A stretch of 64,000 bases of DNA. It comes from Hoeflea sp. GTDB taxonomy: Bacteria > Pseudomonadota > Alphaproteobacteria > Rhizobiales > Rhizobiaceae. Within the stretch, counting starts at the first letter, position 1. Every line of letters begins with the position of its first letter. Location of the stretch: assembly GCF_030682515.1 (NCBI RefSeq), contig NZ_JAUXOD010000122.1:1-64000 (forward strand). Direction: 5' to 3'. The position numbers were made by a program, and so were the translations under genes. The notes under the pieces were generated by a model. The model saw nothing but the letters and a program-made list of their open reading frames with translations. It had not been told where the DNA came from and ran no database searches. Positions 589 through 34,014 of the stretch are shown in pieces.

Positions 589-1941
589 CTACTGCGTTGC
601 CCAGCCCTGGCCGGTGGCCACTTGAAGGCTGATCCAGGTGGTGGCGAGCGACTGCACCGATTGCGCCAGCGACAGCCGGGCGGCGGCGCGGGAGCGTTCC
701 GCATCCAAGAGCGTGAGCAGCGTCGTGGTGCCGCCCGAATAGGTGAGCTGCGACAGCTCGACCGCGCGGGCATAGGACTGGGCCGCCGCTCTCTGGCTGA
801 CAAGCGCGCGCTGGGTGCGCTGCGCGGTGCCGAGTGCGGACTGGGTCTCCTCGACCGCCGCCAGGATGCGCGCGCGCCAGGCGAGCTCCGCCTGCCGCGC
901 CCGGCTGATCGCCTGGTCGCGATCGGCGCGAAGCTTGGGCTGGCTGAGAACCGGCAGCACCAGGGTCGGCCCGAACGACCAGCTGTTGGCCGACGAGGCG
1001 GTGATGTCTCCGGACAGGGTGATCGACGGATAGAGCTGCGCTTCGGCCACGCCAATGGCGGCCACCGCGGCCGCGAGCTCGCGTTCGGCTGCGCGGATGT
1101 CGGGCCGGTTGCGCAGCAGGTCCGCCGGCACCCCTGCCGCCAGGCCGGCTTTCGGCCGGGGCTGCGCCGCGCCCTTCTGCAGCGCCGCGCGCAACGGACC
1201 CGCCGGCTCGGCCAGCAGCGTGGCGATGGCATAGACCGCCGAATCGAAGCCGCTTTCAAGCGCGGGCAGCGAGGCGCGCGCCTCTTCCAGCAGGGCCCGC
1301 GCCTGGACGCGGTCGAGCTCGGTGGCTGTGCCGGCGTCCTCCTGGGCGCGCACAAGCTCGAACGTCCGCTCGCGGGTGGCGATGGTCTGCCGCGTCAGCT
1401 CCAGCGTCTCCTGGAAGTAGCGGGCGTCGACATAGGCGCCGGTGAGGCTCGCCAGAAACGCCAGGCGCGCCGTGCCGATGTCGTAGTCCGCACTCTCGGC
1501 CTGGGCCCGGGCCCGCTCGACGGCCCGGCGCTGGCCGCCGAACAGGTCGAGCACGAGGGAGGCATTGAAGACGGCGCTGCTGGTCGTGACGGTGGGGGAG
1601 GCGGACCCGCCGGAGCGGACCGAGGCTCCGCTCAGATTGCCGCTGACGGTGCCGGCGCCGGTGGAGCGAAGCCCGGCGCGCGCCTCCTCGACGCGTTCGA
1701 TCGCGGTCTGGATGCTGAGATTCTGCGCCAGACCGCGCTCGACCAGAGCATCAAGCTGCGGCGCGCCCAGGCCCTGCCACCATTTGACCAGGGAAACATC
1801 GCCCGCGGAGGCCGTGCCGCCGTCGACATAGCTCGCGGGCGTGGCCGCATCGAGCCCCTTGTAGTCGGGACCAACGGACGCGCAGGCGCACAGGCTGAGC
1901 AGGCTGGCGGTGAGGATGGAGGTGCGGGGAAAAGGGATCAT
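589..1941 (-). CDS. RND efflux outer membrane lipoprotein (NodT/OprM family)
   Basis: Lipobox LSLCACASVGPDY; two OEP repeats; PADLLRNRPDIRAAERELAAAVAAIGVAEAQLYPSITLSG. Confidence 0.92.
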   Translation of the reverse strand: MIPFPRTSILTASLLSLCACASVGPDYKGLDAATPASYVDGGTASAGDVSLVKWWQGLGAPQLDALVERGLAQNLSIQTAIERVEEARAGLRSTGAGTVSGNLSGASVRSGGSASPTVTTSSAVFNASLVLDLFGGQRRAVERARAQAESADYDIGTARLAFLASLTGAYVDARYFQETLELTRQTIATRERTFELVRAQEDAGTATELDRVQARALLEEARASLPALESGFDSAVYAIATLLAEPAGPLRAALQKGAAQPRPKAGLAAGVPADLLRNRPDIRAAERELAAAVAAIGVAEAQLYPSITLSGDITASSANSWSFGPTLVLPVLSQPKLRADRDQAISRARQAELAWRARILAAVEETQSALGTAQRTQRALVSQRAAAQSYARAVELSQLTYSGGTTTLLTLLDAERSRAAARLSLAQSVQSLATTWISLQVATGQGWATQ

Positions 1942-2051
1942 GAAGGGCGGTCTCGCTGGTCAGAACTGGGAGCAGTCTCTGGTGGTGCGAACCTGACAGA
2001 TGGTATCATCCGTTTGGGGCAGACCACGAGGGCATGTCAGGGTCTGTCTCA

Positions 2052-2076
2052 TTGCACGAAAATGCATAGTGTGCAA
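2052..2076. promoter_or_regulatory. Inverted repeat TTGCAC-N13-GTGCAA upstream of TetR gene (candidate operator)
   Basis: Perfect 6-bp arms in the divergent intergenic region between the OMF and TetR genes. Confidence 0.5.
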
Positions 2077-2113
2077 TATTTGCATTGTGGGAAAATTGAC
2101 GGCTGGAGGAATC

Positions 2114-2695
2114 ATGGAGACTGCTTTGCGAGAGCGACGGCGGGTACAGACAGCCCGGGAGATCCATGTTGCTGCGATGGAGCTCTGCCAGGAACTGGGG
2201 CTGGAAGCGGTGACGACCGAGGCCATCTCCAGCCGTGCCGGCATCAGCCTGCGCACCTTCTTCAACTATTTCCCCAACAAGGAGGCGGCGATTGTCAATC
2301 GTCCGCCCGAGTTCCCCCGGGAAGCGGTGCGAGTGTTCACCGAGGGCGGCGGCACCTTGCTCGAGGACATGCGCGGGCTGCTGATTGCCCAATTCATCCA
2401 GATCGATGCCAACAGGAAGTTGGGGCGTCTGTTCCAGGCGCTGCTGCGGGACAATCCCGGCCTGCAGAGCGCCCATGAAGCCTCCATGCGCGGCTTGATC
2501 GCCGAACTCAAGGCCATTCTGGCCACACGACTCGATCCCGACACCGACCACCTGGCGGATATCCTGGCCGTCGTGGTCGTGTGTGCGATCAAGAAGGGTC
2601 TTGAGTCCTGGATCCTTGATGAGGACAGGTCGTTGTCCGAGAGCATCGACGAGATCCTGGCCGACCTCAAGCAGCTTGGACTGGTGTTGCGCTGA
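2114..2695 (+). CDS. TetR/AcrR family transcriptional regulator
   Basis: N-terminal HTH ...AMELCQELGLEAVTTEAISSRAGISLRTFFNYFPNKEAAI; ATG at 2114 preferred over the upstream 2000 start. Confidence 0.9.
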   Translation: METALRERRRVQTAREIHVAAMELCQELGLEAVTTEAISSRAGISLRTFFNYFPNKEAAIVNRPPEFPREAVRVFTEGGGTLLEDMRGLLIAQFIQIDANRKLGRLFQALLRDNPGLQSAHEASMRGLIAELKAILATRLDPDTDHLADILAVVVVCAIKKGLESWILDEDRSLSESIDEILADLKQLGLVLR

Positions 2696-2707
2696 CCGGA
2701 CCCGGGC

Positions 2708-3667
2708 TCAGCTGTAGATGCGGTCATCCACCGGCGTGCGGGCGATCAGGCCGGTCAGGCCCGAAAGCATGGCCGCCTCGGCGCGGTTCTGCTTGGCGTG
2801 CGGGTTCCAGACCACGTGCACGTCGATCGCCGGCGGCGCCTTATAGGGCGGCAGCCGCCACAGACGGCCGCGCTCCACATCCTCGCGCACCACATGCAGG
2901 GGCAGGGGGCCGATCCCGAGGCCGGCGATGATCATGCGCCGCACCTCCTCGAGATTGGGCGAGGTGCCGACAATGCGGGCGTCGAGCTGGGCCTCGGCGC
3001 GCATCTTGGCGACGGGACGGAGGGCATCGTCCATCTGGTCCGTGACGAAGCTCACCGAGGACTGGCCGGCGAGATCGGCCATGGTGACGCCTTCGCGGCC
3101 GAAAAGCGGATGGGTCGGGCCGCAGAACAGGCCGAAATACTCGCGAAACAGCTGCCGGTATTCGAGCGCCGGACTGCAGTCCATCACCAGGCAGATGGCG
3201 AGCGAGGCGCGGCGCGCCGCAACCGCCGTCAGCGCCCCCCGGCTGGCCATCACCTCGATCGACAGCGTCGCGCGGGGGTGATCGGTATGGAACTTGGTCA
3301 GTGTCGCATCCAGGAGGGGGCTCACCACATGGCTGGCGATCACGATGCGGACATGGCCGCTGACCTCGTCCTCGACATCGCGGATCACCGTTCCCAGACG
3401 CAGGATGGCGCCATGGATGTCGATCACCTCGTCATACAGGAGCCGCCCGGCAGCAGTGAGTTCGAACTTTCCGGGCTTGCGGTTGATCAGCCGCTTGCCG
3501 AGCCGGTCCTCGAGCCGCTTCAGCGCGCTTGAAACGGTCGGCTGCTTCAGGCTCAGCCGTTCGGCGGCTTCCGTGACGGATCGGGAATCGGCCAGCACAA
3601 GGAACGTGCGCAGCAGATTCCAGTCGAGGTCGCGGGCCAGTCGTTCGGGCGGCGTGAGGCTGATCAT
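2708..3667 (-). CDS. LysR family transcriptional regulator
   Basis: NLLRTFLVLADSRSVTEAAERLSLKQPTVSSALKRLEDRLGKRLINR; divergent from ABC operon. Confidence 0.92.
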   Translation of the reverse strand: MISLTPPERLARDLDWNLLRTFLVLADSRSVTEAAERLSLKQPTVSSALKRLEDRLGKRLINRKPGKFELTAAGRLLYDEVIDIHGAILRLGTVIRDVEDEVSGHVRIVIASHVVSPLLDATLTKFHTDHPRATLSIEVMASRGALTAVAARRASLAICLVMDCSPALEYRQLFREYFGLFCGPTHPLFGREGVTMADLAGQSSVSFVTDQMDDALRPVAKMRAEAQLDARIVGTSPNLEEVRRMIIAGLGIGPLPLHVVREDVERGRLWRLPPYKAPPAIDVHVVWNPHAKQNRAEAAMLSGLTGLIARTPVDDRIYS

Positions 3668-3673
3668 TTCATT

Positions 3674-3718
3674 ATTGATATCATCAATGGCCGGAATATC
3701 AATTATCTATTTGATCAA
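3674..3718. promoter_or_regulatory. Candidate LysR operator region with repeated ATTGAT/ATCAAT half-sites
   Basis: ATTGAT-ATC-ATCAAT at 3674-3688, then ATCAATTATCTATTTGATCAA up to 3718, between divergent LysR and ABC genes. Confidence 0.45.
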
Positions 3719-3775
3719 TACGCTCTGAGCCAACATCATGGTCGCAACAAGAAGACGCCGGGGAGCGTTCTGACC

Positions 3776-4642: not shown

Positions 4643-5427
4643 TGGGCTGGCGTCTGATCCGCATCTACACGATCCTGGTCTATCTCTTCATGTTCCTGCC
4701 GATCGCGGTGGTGGTGCTGCTGTCGTTCAACGCCAACCAGTTCGGCAGCTTCCCGATGACCGGCCTGTCGACCCGCTGGTTCGAGGTCCTGTGGAACAAC
4801 GACGCCATCATGCGCGCGTTCCGCACCTCGATCGTGCTCGGGCTGATGACGGCGGCGATCTCGACCGTTCTGGGCGTGCTCGCGAGTCTCGCCCTGGTGC
4901 GCTACCGGATTCCGGGCCGCAACCTGATCACCACGCTCTTGATCGCGCCGATCCTGGTGCCCGAAGTGGTGCTCGCCGTGTCGCTGCTGCTGTTTTTGAA
5001 TTTCCTCAATTTCGGCAAGAGCTTCACCCTGCTTCTGGCCGGCCATGTGATCTTCACGCTGCCCTTCGTCATCCTTGTGGTGCAGGCGCGGCTGGTCAGC
5101 ATCAAGCGCGACGTCGAGGAGGCGGCGCTGAGTCTCGGCGCTTCGCCGAGGCAGACCTTCTTCGCGATCACGCTGCCGCTGTTGATGCCGGCAGTGGCCG
5201 CGGGCGGCCTGTTCGCCTTCACCATCAGCTTCGACGACATCACCGGAACCCTGTTCTGGAAGCCGGGCGGGATCGAGACCGTGCCGACCCAGATCTTCTC
5301 GATGCTGCGCAATTCGATCTCGCCCGAAATCAACGCGCTCGGCACGGTCATGATCGTGCTGACGGTCGGGCTGCCGCTGATCGGCGCGGCGATCGCCCGG
5401 AAACTTGCAACAAGAAGCGGTCTGTAG
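4642..5427 (+). CDS. Polyamine-type ABC transporter permease (PotC-like)
   Basis: EEAALSLGASPRQTFFAITLPLLMPAVAAGGLFAFTISFDDI; start overlaps previous stop. Confidence 0.9.
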   Translation: MGWRLIRIYTILVYLFMFLPIAVVVLLSFNANQFGSFPMTGLSTRWFEVLWNNDAIMRAFRTSIVLGLMTAAISTVLGVLASLALVRYRIPGRNLITTLLIAPILVPEVVLAVSLLLFLNFLNFGKSFTLLLAGHVIFTLPFVILVVQARLVSIKRDVEEAALSLGASPRQTFFAITLPLLMPAVAAGGLFAFTISFDDITGTLFWKPGGIETVPTQIFSMLRNSISPEINALGTVMIVLTVGLPLIGAAIARKLATRSGL

Positions 5428-22603: not shown

Positions 22604-23119
22604 CTACGTCGCGATAATGGCGCGCAGCATCCAGAGAGCCTTCTCGTGGAAACCCAGACGCTCGGTCAGCATGTCCTCGGTGACCATGTCGTCATTGTCG
22701 CCGGCCTTGGCTGCCGCGACGCGCATGTCGCGCACGGCCTGCTCGTGCTCCGAAATCAGGTCGGACACCATCTCCTGCGCCGAGGCATGATCGACCTCGG
22801 ACTTGCTGGGCGCGAAGGACTTGGTCATGCCGAAGCTGACGGGCGCCAGATGGCCGAGCGCCCGGATCCGCTCGGCAATGATGTCGGTTGCCGCGAACAG
22901 GGCGTTGTAATGCTCTTCGGTCAGATCGTGGATCGGCTTGAAGACCGGGCCGACCACGTTCCAGTGATAGACATGGCTCTTGATCGTCAGGCGGTAGGTG
23001 GCGGCCAGGATCTCCGAAAGGTCGGCTGACATCGTCTTGCGATAGTCCGCCTTGAGCCCTGTGTGGATGCTGTCCTGAGTGGTCTCGGGGGAAAGACTTG
23101 CGATGGCTGATTTGCTCAT
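22604..23119 (-). CDS. Dps family DNA starvation/stationary phase protection protein (ferritin-like)
   Basis: LAATYRLTIKSHVYHWNVVGPVFKPIHDLTEEHYNALFAATDIIAERIRALG. Confidence 0.9.
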   Translation of the reverse strand: MSKSAIASLSPETTQDSIHTGLKADYRKTMSADLSEILAATYRLTIKSHVYHWNVVGPVFKPIHDLTEEHYNALFAATDIIAERIRALGHLAPVSFGMTKSFAPSKSEVDHASAQEMVSDLISEHEQAVRDMRVAAAKAGDNDDMVTEDMLTERLGFHEKALWMLRAIIAT

Positions 23120-23166: not shown

Positions 23167-23418
23167 TCAGTTTGACGCGATGTTGCCGGAAGTGTCCGCG
23201 GGAAGCGGCTGCTCGGCCATTTCTGTGAGGGCCGGCACTTCGACAGGCACCGAATAGGCCTCCGGCCCGATGGTGCCCTTGTCATTGAAGAACACGCCGA
23301 AAAGGATCCAGCCGGCCACCACTGCAAGGGTCAGGCTGACGACAAGAATCACGAGAACCTGCTTGCCAAGTCGGCCCTGGCGCACCTTTGTGGGATCTTT
23401 TGGTTCCGGCATCTTCAA
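23167..23418 (-). CDS. Small single-TM protein of unknown function
   Basis: QVLVILVVSLTLAVVAGWILFGVFF TM segment; in tandem between dps and holin-like genes. Confidence 0.6.
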   Translation of the reverse strand: MKMPEPKDPTKVRQGRLGKQVLVILVVSLTLAVVAGWILFGVFFNDKGTIGPEAYSVPVEVPALTEMAEQPLPADTSGNIASN

Positions 23419-23541: not shown

Positions 23542-23955
23542 CTAGTCGCGGCCGGACCGGACGAGGGAGCCCGCAATCGCGCCGATCACGACGCCGGCGA
23601 CAATCGCCATGGTCTTGTTCTGCGCAATCAGGTTCGAGGCGCTCGATGCGGCCATGACCGTGGCGGCGCTGGTGGCCGCCAGTCGCTGCCGCCGCATGGC
23701 CCTGCGGTGCACCACGGCGCGAACAACAAGCGCCACCAGCCCCAGCACGATGGACAGGGCTGCGGCGGACAACAGGCCGATCACGAATCCATGGCTCTGC
23801 GCGATGAAGGCGGCGAAGGCGCCCAGCAGCGACATGCTCGCCAGCACCATCATCAGGGCGATCACCGCGATAAGCACGGCGTCGCGCTTGAGCTGCCGCA
23901 CCTTGGCGCCGGCAAAGGCGGAGAGAATGGTCGTCAGGGGAAAGGCCGAGAACAT
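23542..23955 (-). CDS. Phage-holin-family/YqjE-like membrane protein
   Basis: Two hydrophobic hairpins (DAVLIAVIALMMVLASMSLLGAFAAFIA...VIGLLSAAALSIVLGLVALVV); 7 bp downstream of a DUF883 gene, as in yqjD-yqjE pairs. Confidence 0.7.
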   Translation of the reverse strand: MFSAFPLTTILSAFAGAKVRQLKRDAVLIAVIALMMVLASMSLLGAFAAFIAQSHGFVIGLLSAAALSIVLGLVALVVRAVVHRRAMRRQRLAATSAATVMAASSASNLIAQNKTMAIVAGVVIGAIAGSLVRSGRD

Positions 23956-23962
23956 GCGGCCT

Positions 23963-24298
23963 CTACCTGCGCAGCAGGATAGCGGCCAGGAAGCCTGCAG
24001 CGATCGCCACGCCCAGCGACTGCATCGGCTTCTCGCGAACCGTAGTGCTCACCTGCTTTTCGGCGCGGGCAAGCTGGTCCGAAAGATCAGCCACAAGCCG
24101 TTCGCCGCTCCTGAGAACTTCGTCCACACGTGACTCGGCCGCTTCACGCGCCTCTCCGGCCTTGATCGAGCCCGCGCCGGCAAGCGCTTCGCCAAGGGCC
24201 GCCAGTTCGGCGCGGATGCGCGCGGTGCGTTCGGCGATATCGTCCATCACCGGGTTGTCCGATCCGCTCGAACGGGTGCTCTTGCTCGATGTAGCCAT
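23963..24298 (-). CDS. DUF883 family protein (ElaB/YqjD-like)
   Basis: C-terminal REKPMQSLGVAIAAGFLAAILLRR anchor with amphipathic helix. Confidence 0.85.
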   Translation of the reverse strand: MATSSKSTRSSGSDNPVMDDIAERTARIRAELAALGEALAGAGSIKAGEAREAAESRVDEVLRSGERLVADLSDQLARAEKQVSTTVREKPMQSLGVAIAAGFLAAILLRR

Positions 24299-24329
24299 AA
24301 TGCAATCTCCTTGTTGATTTCACCTCCCC

Positions 24330-24354
24330 AACGCCCGAGGCCGCAATAGGTTCC
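24330..24354 (-). promoter_or_regulatory. EcfG-type promoter for DUF883-holin-like pair
   Basis: GGAAC-CTATTGCGGCCTCGGG-CGTT on minus strand (N16). Confidence 0.82.
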
Positions 24355-24370
24355 GGCCGAACAGTGAGAG

Positions 24371-24416
24371 TTGAAAAAAAATAAAACGACCGCCGGATTG
24401 CTCCGGCGGCCGTTTT
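24371..24416 (-). terminator. Intrinsic terminator downstream of PRC-barrel gene
   Basis: minus strand: aaaacggccgccgga-gcaa-tccggcggtcgtttt then atttttttt. Confidence 0.88.
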
Positions 24417-24436
24417 GCAATCTGCACTGAACTGGC

Positions 24437-25390
24437 TTAGCCAGCCGGCGCACGCATGATCACGGAATCGCGGTCAGCGTTCCAGCTCTCCTGGGAGTAT
24501 TCCGGCTGCGCTTCCAGCTGTTCCTTGGTGAACGGCGTGAAGACGGTCAGGCCGCCGTCAGCGTCGGCGCGGATGTCGAGGTTCTCGGGCGAAATCGCCA
24601 CTTCCTTTACACCCATGCCCAGAAAACCGCCGACATTGAGAACGAAACCTTCGATCTGGTTGTCGGTGCTGATCAGCACTTCGCCGACTTCGCCGATGTT
24701 CTCGTTATTCGAGCCATAGACGGTGCGGCCGGTCAGATCATCGGCGGTGATGTCGGTGGGGGTCACCTGCGTCATCGTCATGCGATCGATGACCTGGGTC
24801 TGCTGCTCGGCGGGAGCAACAGCACCGGTGCCCGTGCCGGTGGCGACGTTCGGATCGGTGCCGGTCGCAGGGGCCGGAGCAGTGCCGGTCATCGTGTTCT
24901 GGGTGGCATTCATGCCTTCCGGCTGCGACTGGGCTTCGGTGTAGACATGGGTGCGGTCGAAGGCCGGTGCGGCTTCCAGCTGCTCGCGGGTCATGTTGGC
25001 GACAATCCAGCGCTGGCCGTCGCGGTCGGCCCATGAAACGGCGCTGTATTCGACTTCCACATCCTTCTGACCGATGCCGAGAAAACCGCCCACGCCGATG
25101 ATGACGGAGGACACTTCGCCTTCAGGGCTGACGACGATGTCGTTGATCTTGCCAATCGAGGATGCGTCCATTGCAGACGACTCATAGACGTTGGCGCCGA
25201 TGAGGTCGGTTGCAAGCGTCGGGCCGTGCATGTCGCCGGCTGCATCCGTCATGACGTTGGTGTCAGTGGTTGCATTCATTTCGGTGGTGGCTGCGGGGTT
25301 GGTGTCCGTTGTGGCCGGTGCGGTCTGGGCGAAGGCCGACGTGGCTACAAGTGCGGTCAAGGCCGTGCTGGCCAAAAGCATCTTAAACAT
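24437..25390 (-). CDS. Secreted protein with two PRC-barrel domains
   Basis: Signal peptide; two repeats: LIGANVYESSAMDASSIGKINDIVVSPEGEVSSVIIGVGGFLGIGQKDVEV and LTGRTVYGSNNENIGEVGEVLISTDNQIEGFVLNVGGFLGMGVKEVAI. Confidence 0.87.
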   Translation of the reverse strand: MFKMLLASTALTALVATSAFAQTAPATTDTNPAATTEMNATTDTNVMTDAAGDMHGPTLATDLIGANVYESSAMDASSIGKINDIVVSPEGEVSSVIIGVGGFLGIGQKDVEVEYSAVSWADRDGQRWIVANMTREQLEAAPAFDRTHVYTEAQSQPEGMNATQNTMTGTAPAPATGTDPNVATGTGTGAVAPAEQQTQVIDRMTMTQVTPTDITADDLTGRTVYGSNNENIGEVGEVLISTDNQIEGFVLNVGGFLGMGVKEVAISPENLDIRADADGGLTVFTPFTKEQLEAQPEYSQESWNADRDSVIMRAPAG

Positions 25391-25479
25391 GGTAAATTCC
25401 TCTTTGCATCGAAAGGTGTGCGCCGGGCTGGTCCGTGTGTGAGAGCGCGGGGCCGGCTCGGCGGCGGTGACACAAGAGA

Positions 25480-25504
25480 AACGACGGCCTCTGCCGTTGG
25501 TTCC
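25480..25504 (-). promoter_or_regulatory. EcfG-type promoter for PRC-barrel gene
   Basis: GGAAC-CAACGGCAGAGGCCGT-CGTT on minus strand (N16). Confidence 0.82.
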
Positions 25505-25525
25505 CGCAGGCGACGGTTTTTTTGG

Positions 25526-26647
25526 TCAGCTGGAGGGGGAGGCCGGTTCGCGCACTGTCGGATTCGGACGAGGCGGGTTCATCAGGAACGAGTTGCGCAT
25601 CACGGCATGGCCGATGAGCAGGAACGGAACCGCAAGCAGCCCGCCGATCGGACCCCAGAGCCAGATCCAGAAGGCCAGCGACAGGAACACCAGGAACGGG
25701 CTGAGAGTGACCGATCGGCCGATGACCTGCGGCGTGACGAACTGCGCCTCGAACATGTTGAGCGTGAGGTAGGCGAGCATCGGCATGAAGATCGCGGGCG
25801 GTGAATCCCAGGTCGCCAGTCCGACACCCAGCAGGATCCCGGCCATGACCGCCGGACCGATATAGACGACATAATTGAGCAGGAACGCCAGCATGCCCCA
25901 GAGATAGGGCTGCGGCACGCCGAGCAGCCACATCACCGCCGCGGTGCTGAGCCCGAGGCCCGCGTTGATGACGGTGATGGACAGCAGGTAGCGCGAGACG
26001 AACCATTCGGCGTCCCGGAACATGCGGGCGGTGCGAAGCCGCGACCGCCGGCTGAAGCAAAGGGACAGGACGCTCACGCGCATCGAATGACGGGTGGCGA
26101 GGAAGAAATAGAGGCTTGCCAGGAACAGGATGATCTGGGCAACCAGGGCAGGGGCGAGGGTGGCGATATCCTGTACCGTCGAATTATCCTCGATTTCGAC
26201 AGTCATCTGGGCTTTTCCGCCGGATATGGAGCGGATCTGTTCCTGGACGCCGCCCAGCGTTTCGAAGACCGTGCGCCAGTCGAGCAGGTGGCGCTGCATT
26301 TCCCGCCAGATTTCCGGCAACCGTTCCATCCAGATCGACAACGGCATGGAAAACAGCGTGAGCGCGGAGGCAATCAGTCCAAGGAACAACAGCACCACGA
26401 TCGCCGCCGACAAGGCCGGCGGGATGTAGCGCTCGAGCGCGGCGGCAACCGGCGAGGCCATCAGCCCGGTGATGATGGCAAGGCTGATGGGAGCCAGCAG
26501 AGACCGGGCCTGATCAAGAGCCGCGAAGGCGATCACGAGGCCTATGACGATGATGGAAATCCGGGATATCGATTGCAGGCTGGCGTCCATGCCGGACCTG
26601 GCCGCTATCCGCACCACCGGCGGTTCCAGGCGATACATGTGCTTCAT
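25526..26647 (-). CDS. AI-2E family transporter (PerM-like permease)
   Basis: Multi-TM; YLLSITVINAGLGLSTAAVMWLLGVPQPYLWGMLAFLLNYVVYIGPAV; TLSPFLVFLSLAFWIWLWGPIGGLLAVPFLL. Confidence 0.9.
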   Translation of the reverse strand: MKHMYRLEPPVVRIAARSGMDASLQSISRISIIVIGLVIAFAALDQARSLLAPISLAIITGLMASPVAAALERYIPPALSAAIVVLLFLGLIASALTLFSMPLSIWMERLPEIWREMQRHLLDWRTVFETLGGVQEQIRSISGGKAQMTVEIEDNSTVQDIATLAPALVAQIILFLASLYFFLATRHSMRVSVLSLCFSRRSRLRTARMFRDAEWFVSRYLLSITVINAGLGLSTAAVMWLLGVPQPYLWGMLAFLLNYVVYIGPAVMAGILLGVGLATWDSPPAIFMPMLAYLTLNMFEAQFVTPQVIGRSVTLSPFLVFLSLAFWIWLWGPIGGLLAVPFLLIGHAVMRNSFLMNPPRPNPTVREPASPSS

Positions 26648-26672
26648 GCCGGTTCCCCTATCAATCAAGCAC

Positions 26673-26697
26673 AATGCGGAAACAGCCTGATTGTTCC
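26673..26697 (-). promoter_or_regulatory. EcfG-type promoter (one mismatch) for AI-2E permease gene
   Basis: GGAAC-AATCAGGCTGTTTCCG-CATT on minus strand (N16). Confidence 0.6.
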
Positions 26698-26743
26698 GCG
26701 CGAGCGCGGAAATGAGGCGGATCGGGAACGCGCGCCGGACAGG

Positions 26744-28426
26744 CTATTTTCTGGCGGATCGGGGGGTCTTGGGCCGGGACGTCACCCGCTCATAGGGCAC
26801 GCTGATCGTCACGTTGATACCGTACTCGGTCTTCACCGAAGTGATCGAACCGCCCATCTCGCCCCTGATGGTCGCGTCGAGGAGCTTTGTCCCGAACCCG
26901 CCCTTGGAAAGTGGGGCCTCGGCGCCTTGCGCGACCAGCGGCTCCTCGCTGCGCTCGGACCAGGTCAGGACCAGGTCCGCCTTGTTGCCCCGGCTCCAGG
27001 TGACCGTCCAGGCAATGTCGAGCACGCCGCCGGGGAATCGTGCGGATCCATATTTGAGCGCATTGGTCGCCAGCTCATGGAACGCCAGCCCGAACGCCTG
27101 CGCCGCCGATTCATTGAGCTCAACCTTTGGACCGGCGAACTTGTCGTCGATGGGATCATCGCCGAAGAGCTGCTTGAGTTCCTGGACCAGCAGCGTTTCG
27201 AGATCAGCACCCTGCCAGGCCGTGCGCGCCAGCAGGTCCTGCGAGGCAGCCATCGCCTGCAGCCGCGCGGAAAACGACTGTGTGAACTCCGGCAGCCCCT
27301 CGGAGGCGCGCGCCGTCTGCCGCGAGATGGCCAGAACCCGGGCGATCATGTTCTTGATCCGGTGCTTCATCTCCTGCAGCAGCAGTTCGCGCTCGGTGAG
27401 CGCGCGTTCCGTCTCCTCGCGAAGAATCTCGCCGACTTCGATGGTTCGCTGCTGCGAATGGGACGAAGCAGCCAGCGCCGCGGCGAGGAAGACCGCGGCA
27501 ACCATCAGCATGAAGGATCGGGTCTGGTCGACCGGCGGACTGTAGATTTCGGAAGGCTGGATCTCCAGCGTCCAGATCCGGCCGGCCACGGTCAGCGAGG
27601 TTCTGACTTTCTGAGCAACGCCGAAACCGCTCCCGGGATCCCCGTCGGACCGGAAGATCAGACTGGTGTCCGCCGGCTCTCCGTCCCAGGCCGTGATGTG
27701 GACGGGCAAGACCGGCAGCCGGTTCAGCGCCGATTTAAACAGGTCGCCGATGCGAAACGGCGCGAAGACAAAACCGACGGGAAGTCCGCTCTCCGCCGCG
27801 ACGAACGGCGTGTACATCACGAAGCCCGCCTGCGGGTCGCTCGACGTCTCGCTGACCAGTTGAACCCTGCCCGTCGCGCGCAGCCGCTCTTCTGTCACTG
27901 CCGCCAGAATCGCCGCACGGCGGACCGGGCTTGAGTACATGTCGTATCCGAGCGCAGCGAGGCTTCGGCTGGTCTGGGGCTCCATCAGAACGATGGGGGT
28001 CCGCATCTCCTCGCTGGTTTCGGGCCAGGGGGCGCGGGCGATGCCGTAATTCCGCTCGAGCTCCCGCGCGATGGTTGCATCCGACTGCGCGCCGGCGGGC
28101 AGGTACCGCGCGAAACCGATGCCCTGGACGCCGCTGAACTGCTCGCTTCTCTGCAGATGCCGCACGAAGATCTTGAACGCTTCGGCGCTTGGAACTTCAC
28201 CGGTGGCCTCGAACAGCGCCTCCGTGGACTTGACCAGCAGGATATGGCTCTCGATCCGGTCGCTCAGTCGCTGAACCGCATTTTCGGCCGTGGCCGAAAA
28301 GCTCATCTTGTTGGCGTGGTCGATCGTGTACCAGGACGCCGCCGCCGTCAGCAGGCCGACAAGCGAGACCACTGCAAATATCAGGATTGGCTGGACACGG
28401 TACAGCACGCGCAAGACCTTCTTCAA
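26744..28426 (-). CDS. CHASE-domain sensor histidine kinase, HWE/HisKA_2 type
   Basis: Extracytoplasmic CHASE-like region (EAFKIFVRHLQRSEQFSGVQGIGFARYLPAG); LLLQEMKHRIKNMIARVLAISRQTARASEG; LAFHELATNALKYGS; WSERSEEPLV. Confidence 0.88.
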   Translation of the reverse strand: MKKVLRVLYRVQPILIFAVVSLVGLLTAAASWYTIDHANKMSFSATAENAVQRLSDRIESHILLVKSTEALFEATGEVPSAEAFKIFVRHLQRSEQFSGVQGIGFARYLPAGAQSDATIARELERNYGIARAPWPETSEEMRTPIVLMEPQTSRSLAALGYDMYSSPVRRAAILAAVTEERLRATGRVQLVSETSSDPQAGFVMYTPFVAAESGLPVGFVFAPFRIGDLFKSALNRLPVLPVHITAWDGEPADTSLIFRSDGDPGSGFGVAQKVRTSLTVAGRIWTLEIQPSEIYSPPVDQTRSFMLMVAAVFLAAALAASSHSQQRTIEVGEILREETERALTERELLLQEMKHRIKNMIARVLAISRQTARASEGLPEFTQSFSARLQAMAASQDLLARTAWQGADLETLLVQELKQLFGDDPIDDKFAGPKVELNESAAQAFGLAFHELATNALKYGSARFPGGVLDIAWTVTWSRGNKADLVLTWSERSEEPLVAQGAEAPLSKGGFGTKLLDATIRGEMGGSITSVKTEYGINVTISVPYERVTSRPKTPRSARK

Positions 28427-28602
28427 CGGATTCGGCTCAATCCGCTAAGGCGTTTGAGCCGCCATGGCAAGCGTGATTCCAAAAGGCAGGATCGGGTAAA
28501 CATGCAAGCCGTTCTTTGCGCCGGAGCAAGCCGGGCGAGGAAAATCAGCTGCACGGATAGGGGGAAAACCAGAATCCGTCTATGACACAGGTTAAGCGGG
28601 GA

Positions 28603-29403
28603 TCAGTTGGAAGCGATTTTGTTGATCAGGTCCGGCATGCCGGGTTTGGTGGAGAAGTCCATCAGGAACCGGTCGTCGAAATCCGCAAAACTCACCGACC
28701 GGCGGATTTGCGGGAAAGAGACGAAGCCCTTCTCGATGCGCATCAGGTTTTCCTTGCAAAGCCGCCCGATCGACCGGTTGACGTGGACTGTCGACAGGCC
28801 CATGCAATCGCCAATCTGTTCCTGTGTCAGCTGGAGTTCGAACCCCTTGCCGCTCGCCTGGCCGACCTGCTCGAGCCGGGTCCACAGTTCCAGGAGGAAG
28901 TGCAGGATGCGTTGCGCGGCGGTGCGTGCGCCGAGCGAGACCTTGTGCTCGGCCAGAATGTTGGCATGGCGCACCGTCATCCAGTCAAGGCCCGATGCGA
29001 GCACCGGAAAGCGGCGGTGGATCTCGAGGATGCGAACCGGCTCGATCAGCGCCAGCGAGGACTTTGTCAGCGCGGCTGCGGAATAGATCGATGACGTGTT
29101 GAAGCTGACATGCAGGCCGATGAAATCGCCGGGCAGCGAAACGCCGATGATCAGCCGTCGTCCGCCCGCGGTGATCCGGTAGCGCATGACCCAACCGCTG
29201 CGGACCAGAAAGGTGAGCCGCATCACCTCGCCGTCGTGGATGAACGCATCGCCCTTGTCGACCGAGGCCTGGTTGACCTGCATGGTTTCCAGGTAATCGA
29301 CCTCTTCGGCGGTGAGCAGCATGGACCGACCCAGCCGCCTGACCAGCGGACTGGCGTCTTCGGGGATGGCACTCCGGCTTTCTGATGGCATTGTCTGGCT
29401 CAC
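28603..29403 (-). CDS. Crp/Fnr family transcriptional regulator
   Basis: cNMP-binding-like N-terminus; LQLTQEQIGDCMGLSTVHVNRSIGRLCKENLMRIEKGFV HTH. Confidence 0.88.
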   Translation of the reverse strand: MSQTMPSESRSAIPEDASPLVRRLGRSMLLTAEEVDYLETMQVNQASVDKGDAFIHDGEVMRLTFLVRSGWVMRYRITAGGRRLIIGVSLPGDFIGLHVSFNTSSIYSAAALTKSSLALIEPVRILEIHRRFPVLASGLDWMTVRHANILAEHKVSLGARTAAQRILHFLLELWTRLEQVGQASGKGFELQLTQEQIGDCMGLSTVHVNRSIGRLCKENLMRIEKGFVSFPQIRRSVSFADFDDRFLMDFSTKPGMPDLINKIASN

Positions 29404-29434
29404 GAAAAAGACCCGGCAGTCAGTCTGCCGGGTC
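29404..29434 (-). terminator. Intrinsic terminator downstream of CsbD gene
   Basis: minus strand gacccggcag-actga-ctgccgggtc followed by tttttc; 10-bp perfect stem. Confidence 0.85.
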
Positions 29435-29448
29435 CTTCATATAGGCGA

Positions 29449-29646
29449 TTAGCTTCGGCCAAGCCAGCTGTCGATTTCCTTTTCGGCTTCGTCACGGGTC
29501 TTGCCGTAACGGGCCTGGATCTTGCCGGCCAGCTCGTCGCGGCGGCCTTCGACCACGTCGAGGTCATCGTCGGTGAGCTTGCCCCACTGCGCCTGAGCCT
29601 TGCCGCGATATTCCTTCCATTTGCCTTCAACAATATCCCAGTTCAT
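29449..29646 (-). CDS. CsbD family stress protein
   Basis: MNWDIVEGKWKEYRGKAQAQWGKLTDDDLDVVEGRRDELAGKIQARYGKTRDEAEKEIDSW. Confidence 0.93.
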   Translation of the reverse strand: MNWDIVEGKWKEYRGKAQAQWGKLTDDDLDVVEGRRDELAGKIQARYGKTRDEAEKEIDSWLGRS

Positions 29647-29713
29647 AGAAATTCTCCTTGTCATCATTTGTCTGGTAGCCGCTGTCCGCTTTCGCCAACC
29701 GGCTCGCTACATC

Positions 29714-29738
29714 AACGCCGAACCGGATTTTTGGTTCC
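29714..29738 (-). promoter_or_regulatory. EcfG-type promoter for CsbD gene
   Basis: GGAAC-CAAAAATCCGGTTCGG-CGTT on minus strand (N16). Confidence 0.85.
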
Positions 29739-29804
29739 AGGTTCGCCGGTCGAAAACAGAAGCGTGTGGCTCGAGGCAGCGTGTCCCTGCTGCCCCAAAC
29801 GCAG

Positions 29805-29829
29805 CGGCGGCGCCGCGAAGGCGCCGCCG
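29805..29829 (-). terminator. Strong hairpin downstream of DUF2383 gene (probable terminator)
   Basis: cggcggcgcc-gcgaa-ggcgccgccg; only a weak T-rich tail. Confidence 0.55.
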
Positions 29830-29850
29830 GCTCTCAGCTCTCGGGTCGGA

Positions 29851-30342
29851 TCAATCCTCAAGGGCGTGATGGCGGGCATCAAGGCGTCGGATGACATCCT
29901 CGATTTCGGAGCGATGCTTCAACAGCAGCGCTTGCGCCGCGTCGAAAACGCCGGCCGGAACCGAATCCCTGTTCTTGGCAAGCGCTTCGATCGCATCGTC
30001 ATAGGAAGACACGATGCGGCGTTCGCCGTCGACGACGGCAGGGAGAACGTCGCCGTCCAGATCGGTGAAGAACGCCCTGGTGCGGACCACGCCTTCGTGA
30101 ACCGTCGACATGAACGACCCGTCTTCCGAGGGGTGCCGGCCGTGGGCGACCAGGAACTGGGCCAGTTCGCCCGCCTGGCGATCCGTCGTCTCACGGGTTG
30201 TTTCCAGCACGGTCCTGATTTCCGGTTCCGCCTTCTCGAGCATCACGTCATAGCCGTGAACGGCATCAATGAGGGCGATATGGGTATCGCCCACGGCATC
30301 CAGAACCTCGGCTGTGACTACGTCTATCGTTTCGCTACTCAT
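29851..30342 (-). CDS. DUF2383/PA2169-like four-helix-bundle protein
   Basis: All-helical; DAVHGYDVMLEKAEPEIRTVLETTRETTDRQAGELAQFLVAHGRHPSEDGSFMSTVHEGVVRTRAFF. Confidence 0.75.
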   Translation of the reverse strand: MSSETIDVVTAEVLDAVGDTHIALIDAVHGYDVMLEKAEPEIRTVLETTRETTDRQAGELAQFLVAHGRHPSEDGSFMSTVHEGVVRTRAFFTDLDGDVLPAVVDGERRIVSSYDDAIEALAKNRDSVPAGVFDAAQALLLKHRSEIEDVIRRLDARHHALED

Positions 30343-30448
30343 GATAAACCTCTTGTGCAGGTGTTTTGCTTGGGGATGGTTTGGGTAACTTTCTTCCGGG
30401 CAGGGTCGTCCCGGGGTCTTCCTGTCCTGGCTTGGGCGCAGGGACCGA

Positions 30449-30787
30449 TCAGTTCAACCGACGGGTCTCGTCGGTCGGGCCCGATTGGGCAAGGGCCGGG
30501 CTGGTCATCTCGGGATTGATCAGCTCAAGCACGACTTCAAGGTCGCCCTCGGCGGAAACATCCCAGACGATCTCGGCATCTTCGTAAAACAGCGCCGGAT
30601 CGATCTCGACACATTTGCCCAGGGCGTGGCCCTGCTCCACCGTGATCATCATGCGGATGGACGGAGACAGGTCCGCCTCGCACTGCCGGACGGTCTCGTA
30701 GGCGACAACCGGTGCGGGCTGCTCTGCGCAAGTCTGGTAATCATCGCTGCAGGCGATCAGAATCATGAAGGCTGCTATGTGTTCCAT
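30449..30787 (-). CDS. Hypothetical protein, putative signal peptide
   Basis: Open frame MEHIAAFMILIACSDDYQTCAEQPAPVVAYETVRQCEADLSP...; preceded by EcfG-type promoter. Confidence 0.65.
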   Translation of the reverse strand: MEHIAAFMILIACSDDYQTCAEQPAPVVAYETVRQCEADLSPSIRMMITVEQGHALGKCVEIDPALFYEDAEIVWDVSAEGDLEVVLELINPEMTSPALAQSGPTDETRRLN

Positions 30788-30810
30788 GACGCTTCTCCTT
30801 TGAGGAGATT

Positions 30811-30835
30811 AACGCCCGGCCCTGCGGGAAGTTCC
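30811..30835 (-). promoter_or_regulatory. EcfG-type promoter for hypothetical gene 30449-30787
   Basis: GGAAC-TTCCCGCAGGGCCGGG-CGTT on minus strand (N16). Confidence 0.82.
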
Positions 30836-30905
30836 GCACGGGAGAATTTTCCGGATCAATGCCCCGTCGCCGATGGATGGCGGAAAGGCCTGCGGACCTG
30901 GATTT

Positions 30906-31913
30906 TCAGCTGAGTTCGTACTGGCTGTCGGGAATGGTCAGCTCGTAGAGGATCTGGGAGTCGCTCGACTCGTGACGCACGCCCGCCGACAGGGCCTGGG
31001 GCACGATGCGTTTGAGCACGGTGCCGGAAAACCCTGTCCCGTGGGCAGGTGGCAGCCCGCTGGCGATGGGCGCCAGCAGGAATTTTTCCGTCCAGGTGAT
31101 GATCAGTTCGTTCTCGTTGCGGTCGTTGAGGTGCTTGTGCGCCGACAGCACGATTTCGCCCCCCGCGGGTCCAAGGGCGCCCGTGGCCAGGGAATTGATC
31201 GTCAGCTCGTGCAGAGCCAGCCCGAGGTGCAGCGCCGCATTGGGAAGCAGGTAGGCATCCTCGCCCACCATCGAAAAGCCGGCCGGCGTGTCGCCGACCA
31301 GCGGCCGCAACTGGGATTTCGTGAGTTCGAAAAGGGCGGCGCCCCGCCAGTCCGATGCGGTCACCAGATCCTGCGACTGGGCCATGGACTGGATCCGGTT
31401 GCGGAACGCGAACAGGAATTCGTCTAGATCGTGCGCGGACCGAGCGGTTTGCGAGGCGATCGACTGAATGATCGCCAGCAGGTTTTTCGACCGGTGGTTC
31501 AGTTCGCGCAGCAGCGTCCGCAGCACGGTTTCCCGGTACTTCAGGTCGTCAATGTCCAGGATCGTCGTCACGACGCCGATCACCGCGCCGGTGTCGTCCC
31601 TGTCGGGATCCATGTGCAGGAGATACCAGCGCCGCTTCTGGTTGGCTTCGCGCTGGACTTCGAGCTTAGAGGCTTCTCCGGAAGAGAGCACCTCGCGCTT
31701 GGCGGAAGCAATTCTTGCCGCCTGCACCTCGCCAAACAGAGCCTGGTCGGACTTGCCGATCACATCGGCCTCCCGTGGCCACAATTCGGGCAGGTTGGCG
31801 CAGAAACCGATGATGAGGTCGGTATCCTGGTAAATCATCGACACGCCAGCATTCCGCAATCCCGCCAGCACGAAGTTCAGCCGATGGGACTCCTTGGGTG
31901 AATTCAGGGGCAT
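30906..31913 (-). CDS. PAS-domain sensor histidine kinase, HWE/HisKA_2 type
   Basis: PAS-like N-terminus; LRTLLRELNHRSKNLLAIIQSIASQTARSAHDLDEF; LHLGLALHELTINSLATGAL; likely start 31913. Confidence 0.87.
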   Translation of the reverse strand: MPLNSPKESHRLNFVLAGLRNAGVSMIYQDTDLIIGFCANLPELWPREADVIGKSDQALFGEVQAARIASAKREVLSSGEASKLEVQREANQKRRWYLLHMDPDRDDTGAVIGVVTTILDIDDLKYRETVLRTLLRELNHRSKNLLAIIQSIASQTARSAHDLDEFLFAFRNRIQSMAQSQDLVTASDWRGAALFELTKSQLRPLVGDTPAGFSMVGEDAYLLPNAALHLGLALHELTINSLATGALGPAGGEIVLSAHKHLNDRNENELIITWTEKFLLAPIASGLPPAHGTGFSGTVLKRIVPQALSAGVRHESSDSQILYELTIPDSQYELS

Positions 31914-31975
31914 CGAGCACTCTTTACCGTGTTGGCCTGGGGCAACGTTTCGGCCGGGATCCATCGGGACGGACC

Positions 31976-32004
31976 GCGGGCGCCGGAACCCAAGCCGGCG
32001 CCCG
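31976..32004. repeat. Perfect 11-bp-stem hairpin between DUF1328 and kinase genes
   Basis: gcgggcgccgg-aacccaa-ccggcgcccgc (no T-tract). Confidence 0.5.
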
Positions 32005-32055
32005 CTTCCATGGTGTGGCGCGCTGCCTTGAGGGGAAGGTCAGCTGGCCTCGGGG

Positions 32056-32220
32056 TCAGGCTTTCCGGATGAAATTCATGACCAGCGAAATAACCAGAAG
32101 CGCCACGAACAGGAAGAACAGAATCTGGGCGATACCTGCCGAAGCTCCGGCGATGCCGCCAAAACCCAGAACACCTGCGATGATGGCGACGACGAGAAAG
32201 ACGAGAGCATAATAAAGCAT
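32056..32220 (-). CDS. DUF1328 (YtjA-like) small membrane protein, 54 aa; below the ORF-track size cutoff
   Basis: Own translation: [54 protein letters not shown]. Confidence 0.92.
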
Positions 32221-32251
32221 CGATAAACTCCTTTGTCATTGATGCTCGCTC

Positions 32252-32276
32252 AACGTTTCTCGTTTCAATTGGTTCC
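32252..32276 (-). promoter_or_regulatory. EcfG-type promoter for DUF1328 gene, -35 inside the last codons of phyR
   Basis: GGAAC-CAATTGAAACGAGAAA-CGTT on minus strand (N16); GGA ACC AAT TGA = phyR C-terminal G-T-N-stop. Confidence 0.85.
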
Positions 32277-33089
32277 AGTCATCGGCGGAACCTCATCGGC
32301 AGGATCATTGGCGGAATTGAAAAACAGCGCCTGGCTGATCAGAGCCTTGACCATATCCGGGTTGAAAGGCTTGGTCACCAAGAATGCCGGCTCCGGCTTT
32401 TCGCCGGTCAAAAGGCGTTCGGGAAAGGCGGTGATGAAAATAACCGGAAGCGTCTCGTCCTTGAGGATGTCGTTGACCGCATCGATCCCGGAGCTTCCGT
32501 CAGCCAGCTGGATATCGGCCAGGATCATCTTGGGTCGGGTGCGCTTGTATAGCTCGAGCGCCTCCATCCGGGTCCGGGCAATCCCGGTGACGCGATGACC
32601 AAGCGTTTCCACCATGTCCTCGATGTCCATGGCGATCAGCGGCTCATCCTCGATGATCATGATGTCGGTAGCGACCTGCTCGGATATTTCCCGTGCCGCC
32701 TGGTCGAGGAGACCGGAAAGCCCGGCGCCGTCGACCTCGAGGATTTCAGCGCATTGATCGGGAGTGAAGCCCTCCACCGCGATCAGAAGGAACGCCTTGC
32801 GGGCCTGCGGGGTCACCGCCTCCAGATTGGCGGCTGCCTTTTTCTCCCAGCCGAAGGGGGTCACGGTCTCGGGCATTGGAACCGACAGGCTGTCGAAGAG
32901 TTGAGAGTAGAGCTTGTAGAGCGCAACGCGATCATCGCCGGAAACGGGAAACACGGAGAGATCGGCGATAAGCGCTTCGAGTGTTGCGGCGACAAAAGCG
33001 TCACCGGATGTTTGCGACCCGGTTACCGCGCGCGAAAAGCGACGTAGATAAGGAAGATGCGGCGCGATGCGCATGGATAATGTCGTCAT
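32265..33089 (-). CDS. phyR: PhyR-type response regulator (sigma-like N-terminus + receiver), general stress response
   Basis: ECF-sigma-like domain without DNA-binding function followed by IMIIEDEPLIAMDIEDMVETLGHRVTGIARTRMEALEL...KMILADIQLADGSSGIDAV...PVIFITAFPERLL; next to nepR-ecfG. Confidence 0.94.
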   Translation of the reverse strand: MTTLSMRIAPHLPYLRRFSRAVTGSQTSGDAFVAATLEALIADLSVFPVSGDDRVALYKLYSQLFDSLSVPMPETVTPFGWEKKAAANLEAVTPQARKAFLLIAVEGFTPDQCAEILEVDGAGLSGLLDQAAREISEQVATDIMIIEDEPLIAMDIEDMVETLGHRVTGIARTRMEALELYKRTRPKMILADIQLADGSSGIDAVNDILKDETLPVIFITAFPERLLTGEKPEPAFLVTKPFNPDMVKALISQALFFNSANDPADEVPPMTGTN

Positions 33090-33133
33090 TTTTTACCCCT
33101 TGATTGTCCACAGAAAGTGGCGACAACACAACA

Positions 33134-33158
33134 AACGCACGATTTGAAAAAAAGTTCC
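33134..33158 (-). promoter_or_regulatory. EcfG-type promoter for phyR
   Basis: GGAAC-TTTTTTTCAAATCGTG-CGTT on minus strand (N16). Confidence 0.88.
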
Positions 33159-33166
33159 CGCATCGT

Positions 33167-33191
33167 GGAACTTTTTTTTAGGCGGCGCATT
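33167..33191 (+). promoter_or_regulatory. EcfG-type promoter for nepR-ecfG (one mismatch to CGTT)
   Basis: GGAAC-TTTTTTTTAGGCGGCG-CATT on plus strand (N16; also GGAAC-N18-TT). Confidence 0.78.
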
Positions 33192-33233
33192 ATATGGTCA
33201 ATGTGTTGATTCAAAAATGGGCTGGCAAGGGGT

Positions 33234-33428
33234 ATGATGACCAAAAACAGCAACGGCGCACCCGCTGCGGGCAGGCGATCCAATCATGAAGCGAGCGATG
33301 CAATCGCCTCGCAGCTGAAGCGCTATTACAAATCCGTGGAACAGGAGCCGATCCCCGATTCGCTGCTCGACCTGCTCGAGAAGCTTGATCAGGCGGAGCG
33401 TGCCGGCATAGCCGATGGCGCAAACTGA
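33234..33428 (+). CDS. nepR: NepR anti-sigma factor
   Basis: IASQLKRYYKSVEQEPIPDSLLDLLEKLDQAE core; immediately upstream of ecfG. Confidence 0.92.
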   Translation: MMTKNSNGAPAAGRRSNHEASDAIASQLKRYYKSVEQEPIPDSLLDLLEKLDQAERAGIADGAN

Positions 33429-33429
33429 G

Positions 33430-34014
33430 ATGAGCGCGCCCCAATCCATCGCAGCCGATGCCGCGACGCCGTACTCCTTCAAGCGCGAGATGCTCGCCGC
33501 GTTGCCGGGTCTGCGGGCCTTTGCAGTGTCGCTGGCGCGCCGTCACGACCGTGCCGATGACCTGGTGCAGGAAACGGTGATGAAGGCCTGGGGCAAGCAG
33601 GAGAGTTTCCAGCCGGGAACGAACATGCGCGCCTGGCTGTTCACCATCCTGCGGAACGAATTCTACAGCCAGATGCGCAGGAAGGGCCGGGAGCTTCCCG
33701 ATCCCGACGGCGTGTTCGCCGGCAACCTCGCCACCCATCCCGAGCAATACGGCAAGCTCGACATGGCCGACTTCAAGGCGGCGCTCGACACCTTGCCCGA
33801 CGACCAGCGCGAGGCGATCATCCTGATCGGCGCGTCGGGATTTGCCTATGAGGAAGCAGCCGAGATCGCCGGCGTGGCCGTGGGCACGATCAAGAGCCGC
33901 GTCAACCGCGCGCGCAACAGGTTGCGGGAACTGCTCGGCATCGAAGGCGAGGGCGACTACGGCCCCGACAGCACCTCGGCGCCGCTGGTCAACAAGGGTT
34001 CCGCCGGCATGTAG
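33430..34014 (+). CDS. ecfG: EcfG-family ECF sigma factor (general stress response)
   Basis: PGLRAFAVSLARRHDRADDLVQETVMKAWGKQESFQPGTNMRAWLFTILRNEFYSQMRRKGRE; LPDDQREAIILIGASGFAYEEAAEIAGVAVGTIKSRVNRARNRL; alternative ATG at 33415. Confidence 0.93.
   Translation: MSAPQSIAADAATPYSFKREMLAALPGLRAFAVSLARRHDRADDLVQETVMKAWGKQESFQPGTNMRAWLFTILRNEFYSQMRRKGRELPDPDGVFAGNLATHPEQYGKLDMADFKAALDTLPDDQREAIILIGASGFAYEEAAEIAGVAVGTIKSRVNRARNRLRELLGIEGEGDYGPDSTSAPLVNKGSAGM

Follow-up and report, generated by a model that had tools for sequence, protein, structure and literature searches.

A general-stress-response locus of Hoeflea in which the PhyR-NepR-EcfG switch lies beside a block of predicted EcfG targets

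In the general stress response (GSR) of Alphaproteobacteria, stress kinases phosphorylate PhyR, which takes the anti-sigma factor NepR off the sigma factor EcfG, and both switch units of the core locus are themselves GSR-driven (reviewed in PMC8103513). A locus of this kind is described here from Hoeflea sp., in a stretch of 64,000 nucleotides (contig NZ_JAUXOD010000122.1, positions 1 to 64,000 of the forward strand), which is referred to as the window. As in the alphaproteobacterial core locus, phyR and nepR-ecfG are divergent, EcfG promoters precede both, and an HWE kinase is nearby (PMC8103513). The rpoE2 locus of Sinorhizobium meliloti (SMc01504-SMc01509) is similar in that the switch, a PAS/HWE kinase and an adjacent RpoE2-dependent DUF883 gene, SMc01509, whose promoter is published, are found together (PMC6180224). 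In a S. meliloti record, the stretch before the DUF883 gene near rpoE2 is letter-identical to the published SMc01509 promoter, and SMc01509 is 36% identical to the DUF883 protein of the Hoeflea block. The Rhizobium etli ecfG1-phyR-tcrY-ReC64 locus likewise has an EcfG-dependent transcript beside the switch: the small RNA ReC64, adjacent to phyR-tcrY, has a start mapped by rapid amplification of cDNA ends where the EcfG consensus predicts it, and is lost without ecfG1 (PMC3892343). That consensus is published as GGAAC-N16-CGTT for Rhizobium and Sphingopyxis (PMC3892343, PMC7083833).

The original prediction placed the core switch of the window beside a contiguous block of its own targets. This arrangement is supported by a canonical switch present in single copy, by the retention of a site in 66 of 67 upstream regions of Hoeflea loci, and by neighbours that are proven EcfG/RpoE2 targets in relatives. 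It is very likely that the region is the Hoeflea general-stress-response locus and that EcfG drives eight local promoters; by analogy with relatives, EcfG would use these sites and stress would trigger them. The promoters and the three switch genes are given below in window positions, with the number of Hoeflea loci, from a set of nine, that have each promoter.

33134-33158, minus strand: phyR promoter, GGAAC, T7 run, CGTT, about 44 nucleotides before the phyR start (9 of 9 loci)
33167-33191, plus strand: nepR-ecfG promoter, -10 box CATT, back to back with the phyR promoter (9 of 9)
32252-32276, minus strand: DUF1328 promoter, EcfG-type, probably serving the PAS-HWE kinase too (9 of 9)
30811-30835, minus strand: promoter of the four-cysteine protein gene, EcfG-type (7 of 8)
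29714-29738, minus strand: csbD promoter, EcfG-type, with the Crp-like regulator and the CHASE-HWE kinase downstream (8 of 8)
26673-26697, minus strand: promoter of the AI-2E family gene, EcfG-type, -10 box CATT (8 of 8)
25480-25504, minus strand: PRC-barrel gene promoter, EcfG-type, N16 or N17 (8 of 8)
24330-24354, minus strand: DUF883 gene promoter, EcfG-type (8 of 8)
32265-33089, minus strand: phyR, anti-anti-sigma response regulator of 274 amino acids (aa), phospho-acceptor Asp192
33234-33428, plus strand: nepR, anti-sigma factor of 64 aa, PF18557
33415-34014, plus strand: ecfG, ECF15-type sigma factor of 199 aa, overlapping the nepR end by 14 nucleotides

All eight predicted GGAAC-N16-C(G/A)TT sites are found at the positions and on the strands given for them, with 16-bp spacing and each before a correctly oriented gene. 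A scan of spacings from N13 to N20 revealed one further match in the block, with N14. The AI-2E site is correctly placed, but the first start of its open reading frame (ORF; TTG, 26674) overlaps the -10 box of the gene's own promoter, and the likely start is the ATG at 26647, behind AGGGGAA. The term "holin-like", which had been attached to the 24330 site, was dropped because the 137-aa protein has no convincing family match; the site precedes a short DUF883-type gene, to which the 137-aa gene is a neighbour.

The genome-wide consensus scan proposed with the original prediction displays a clear excess at the block. The window holds 10 matches with N16-17 spacing, compared with a mean of 1.52 in shuffled sequences (standard deviation 1.25, largest 5), and the two that lie outside the block (4798-4822 and 61183-61207) are inside adenosine triphosphate-binding cassette (ABC) transporter coding sequence. 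Across the 4.67-Mb draft genome, N16-CRTT matches number 109, against 52 for the reversed pattern. Strict N16-CGTT sites number 75, six of them within the 8.9 kb of the block where 0.14 would be expected; a scan-type test with uniform placement never put six strict sites into any 8.9-kb stretch (0 of 20,000 simulations, P < 5e-5). The strict sites outside the window's contig (n = 67) fall upstream of a predicted gene in 36 cases and in coding sequence in 29, with 2 unassigned, a split that is approximate, as a simple codon-usage script was used to call the genes around these sites. The block therefore accounts for 6 of the well-placed strict sites, of which the genome has about 42, while making up 0.2% of its length. 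Of the scattered remainder, about 36 predicted targets include genes for superoxide dismutase, Ku, trehalose phosphatase, DUF892, DUF302, PRC-barrel, DUF1328 and DJ-1/PfpI proteins, a typical general-stress list. Strict sites without a called gene behind them are present at loci L143 and L139, where small RNAs or missed small genes are possible. That the block sites are themselves chance matches in a GC-rich genome might be argued from the 29 of 67 strict sites inside coding sequence. However, the shuffles, the simulation, the correct orientation of all eight sites before genes and the site conservation described next rule this out, and its probability is practically negligible.

Conservation in related genomes, also proposed as a check, was assessed in the nine Hoeflea loci. 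The site is retained on the right strand and at a similar distance in 66 of 67 orthologous upstream regions. Aligned spacers are 53% identical to those of the window, and the flanks are also about half identical. Three loci (L001-L003) are collinear with the window, and in H. marina (L009) the block is on the opposite side of the switch, still adjacent to it. In three others a pyridoxamine-oxidase-like stress gene (PF16242) with its own EcfG site is located between the four-cysteine gene and csbD (L004, 13275-13865; L007, 6289-6882; L008, 14151-14730), at the place where the window has DUF2383; in the window's genome this gene is represented only by a distant relative elsewhere. The gene orders are in keeping with a cluster that can acquire, lose and relocate genes and yet remains at the switch.

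By Pfam and NCBIfam matches and by solved homologues, PhyR, NepR and EcfG are canonical. Each is encoded once in the genome, and no convincing second copies of phyR or ecfG were found. PhyR has a sigma-like domain fused to a receiver (PF22029, PF22233, PF00072; NF006623 above its cut-off; PRK09191 at 374 bits), with Asp192 in the motif LADIQL. It matches the structures 4g97_A (1e-115, alignment of 261 residues) and 4qic (PhyR), and is 94% identical to PhyR of a Hoeflea metagenome-assembled genome and 75-89% to that of other Hoeflea, which places the genome in this genus of Rhizobiaceae. NepR matches PF18557 (2e-15, 56 bits against a cut-off of 25.7) and the NepR chains 5uxx_B and 4qic_B, although its score for the NCBIfam NepR equivalog is under the cut-off. 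EcfG has sigma2 and sigma4 regions without further domains, lies in nepR-phyR context and matches 5uxx_A (5e-70), from the same entry as the NepR chain 5uxx_B. The promoters of phyR and nepR, which diverge, make up a near-perfect inverted repeat, AAAAAAAGTTCC-N8-GGAACTTTTTTT (window 33139-33183), and those of other Hoeflea come close to it. Each -35 box is immediately followed by an A/T tract, a feature conserved in the genus. Where Rhizobiaceae loci have both promoters, 5-9 bp separate the two -35 boxes in most cases. A promoter that is occupied might influence its partner.

Seven of the eight promoters in the block point leftward and one, that of nepR-ecfG, rightward. From the switch outward the leftward units are phyR; DUF1328 and the PAS-HWE kinase; the 112-aa protein and DUF2383; csbD, the Crp-like regulator and the CHASE-HWE kinase; AI-2E; PRC-barrel; and DUF883, the 137-aa gene, an 83-aa ORF and dps. 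The block is bounded by fumC, which converges on ecfG, and by an RraA-like gene that converges on dps. Its genes other than the switch, all on the minus strand, and one hairpin are as follows.

32056-32220, minus strand: DUF1328 small membrane protein, 54 aa, PF07043
30906-31964, minus strand: PAS-HWE histidine kinase, 352 aa, HRSKN at 157
30449-30787, minus strand: four-cysteine protein, 112 aa, invariant cysteines 13, 20, 36 and 59
29851-30342, minus strand: DUF2383 four-helix protein; slot held by another EcfG-preceded gene in some Hoeflea
29449-29667, minus strand: CsbD-family protein, PF05532
28603-29403, minus strand: Crp/Fnr-type regulator, without its own EcfG site
26744-28426, minus strand: CHASE-HWE histidine kinase, HRIKN at 355, without its own EcfG site
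25526-26647, minus strand: AI-2E family membrane protein, start corrected to ATG 26647
24437-25390, minus strand: two-PRC-barrel-domain protein, PF05239 in two stretches
24383-24416, minus strand: strong hairpin resembling an intrinsic terminator, with 15 pairs followed by a T run, at the end of the PRC unit
23963-24298, minus strand: DUF883-type (ElaB-like) membrane-anchored protein, homologue of S. meliloti SMc01509
23542-23955, minus strand: 137-aa membrane protein with four hydrophobic segments, 7 nucleotides behind DUF883
22604-23119, minus strand: Dps-type ferritin, last collinear gene, with the 83-aa ORF (23167-23418) between

The DUF883-type protein is short and scores just under the Pfam cut-off, and the likeness of the 137-aa protein to SMc01508 is positional only. 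The final codons of phyR contain the -35 box of the 32252 promoter. A mobile genomic island was considered and rejected: the window has no transfer RNA gene, the block genes include no mobility gene, and the block is conserved across Hoeflea.

The two kinases of the block are the genome's best (PAS-HWE) and second-best (CHASE-HWE) matches to the HWE family (PF07536). The HWE phospho-acceptor motif HRxxN, which marks PhyR kinases, is found in both, as HRSKN and HRIKN. The PAS-HWE kinase and the kinase next to S. meliloti rpoE2 share 34% identity over 241 aa. In Rhizobium loci a site at the same place, the end of phyR, directly precedes the kinase; thus control of the Hoeflea kinase by the 32252 promoter is plausible, and if that promoter does control it, the sensors belong to the feedback. 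A further HWE kinase is encoded on contig G000:C99 (about 1327-3756), which also carries an EcfG-type site roughly 2 kb away from it.

The 112-aa protein behind the 30811 site has no Pfam or NCBIfam match, and its four cysteines are invariant among its relatives. It is present in 87 of 151 Rhizobiaceae genomes and, as a weak match, in 1 of 191 other alphaproteobacterial genomes, and an EcfG site lies just upstream of 26 of 30 sampled Rhizobiaceae genes for it. Homologues were not found in phages; among plasmid records one Shinella replicon has it, unannotated. The structural model, of fair quality (mean predicted local distance difference test score, pLDDT, of 82), has mixed strands and helices, with no PDB match at E ≤ 0.001. 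On sequence criteria this is an undescribed, Rhizobiaceae-restricted family and a near-constant gene behind EcfG sites. A role in thiol chemistry or feedback would be a guess. In Sphingomonas melonis an EcfG-regulated protein of unknown function adjoining ecfG proved to be the feedback regulator NepR2 (PMC6599016), and thus the unknown genes in such blocks are worth testing.

Up to 5 kb from phyR, 71 other Rhizobiaceae loci have 0.26-1.7 sites per kb; beyond that distance the density is near that of the reversed-pattern control. Several further arrangements in the family also have CsbD, DUF883, DUF1328, the four-cysteine gene and an HWE kinase in the vicinity of phyR, in most cases behind sites of their own, and some other genera have targets placed between phyR and nepR-ecfG. 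Twenty loci across Alphaproteobacteria, 386 kb in all, have 54 matches compared with 10 controls, most of the matches lying close to the switch, and in most of the alphaproteobacteria sampled clustering is limited to the switch promoters. Large blocks thus characterise Hoeflea and some of its relatives but not the class as a whole. In locus L098, from another alphaproteobacterial family, eight EcfG-type matches lie no more than 10 kb from nepR; this is a possible independent block.

In the proposed mechanism, phosphorylated PhyR would free EcfG from NepR, and EcfG-RNA polymerase would then fire the eight local promoters. Two of them, those of phyR and nepR-ecfG, would amplify the switch, and the other six would drive single genes or short operons. 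The DUF1328 promoter would serve DUF1328 and then probably the PAS-HWE kinase; the four-cysteine promoter, the four-cysteine gene with DUF2383; and the csbD promoter, csbD and then possibly the Crp-like regulator and the CHASE-HWE kinase. The AI-2E and PRC-barrel promoters would each drive the gene for which they are named, and the DUF883 promoter would drive DUF883 and the 137-aa gene, possibly continuing to dps. Read-through into the kinases, Crp and dps, and action of the kinases on PhyR, are steps that we infer only.

Several observations weigh against EcfG control of the whole block. Crp, the CHASE-HWE kinase and Dps have no EcfG site within 250 bp upstream, and the nearest site to the PAS-HWE kinase is the DUF1328 promoter, about 250 bp upstream. 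With no close site of their own, Crp, both kinases and dps would respond only if transcripts read through, and EcfG control of Dps is possible solely by that route. L008 has no strict match before the four-cysteine gene. In addition, the near-perfect identity of the boxes is partly built in, as it was measured on sites selected by the consensus, and the 66/67 count alone is unbiased.

The sites might instead be served mainly by one or more other extracytoplasmic function (ECF) sigma factors. Further ECF factors are present in the genome, and AAC in the -35 box is commonly seen with ECF factors (PMC7083833); however, the pattern is the published consensus of EcfG itself (PMC3892343, PMC7083833), and the genome's single EcfG is encoded within the block. 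Service by another factor is thus very unlikely. A separate question is why the genes stand together. Closeness could itself be selected, either as a compact regulon that responds first or as parts kept together under transfer or rearrangement. The H. marina block, which has switched sides and is still adjacent, would fit this, as would the several Rhizobiaceae gene orders that retain the same targets near phyR and the EcfG-preceded pyridoxamine-oxidase-like gene inside the block of three loci. However, common ancestry with local inversions could yield the same picture, the other predicted targets are scattered genome-wide, and only the switch promoters cluster in most alphaproteobacteria sampled, so that selected closeness is considered unlikely. 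A bolder combination, in which selection keeps the switch together with the targets closest to it, as a regulon that is compact but can be rearranged, and the four-cysteine protein acts as an undescribed Rhizobiaceae stress-response factor of this core (for example a thiol-sensing feedback component or effector), is more doubtful still.

With EcfG as the factor that very probably serves these sites, the locus provides a core regulon of the alphaproteobacterial stress response that is cleanly defined by sequence, and does so in a genus for which no description of such a block was found in the literature searched, which misses most subscription journals. It also draws attention to one undescribed protein family that is an almost constant target across Rhizobiaceae, and the rearranged loci are a natural set for asking if distance from the sigma-factor gene matters to its targets.

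Compared with the described systems, the arrangement stood and its novelty had been overstated, as targets beside the switch are already recorded in S. meliloti and R. etli. The S. meliloti rpoE2 locus differs in that one adjacent target unit is recognised, against six in Hoeflea, and its 16.5 kb annotation names no CsbD, DUF1328, PRC or AI-2E gene. In R. etli the neighbour is a small RNA, whereas the Hoeflea window has no match to known RNA families in Rfam. Unlike the core locus, that of Hoeflea adds six EcfG-type promoters of other genes in one contiguous block of about 9 kb. The Hoeflea block is a larger version of a known arrangement and no new kind of system.

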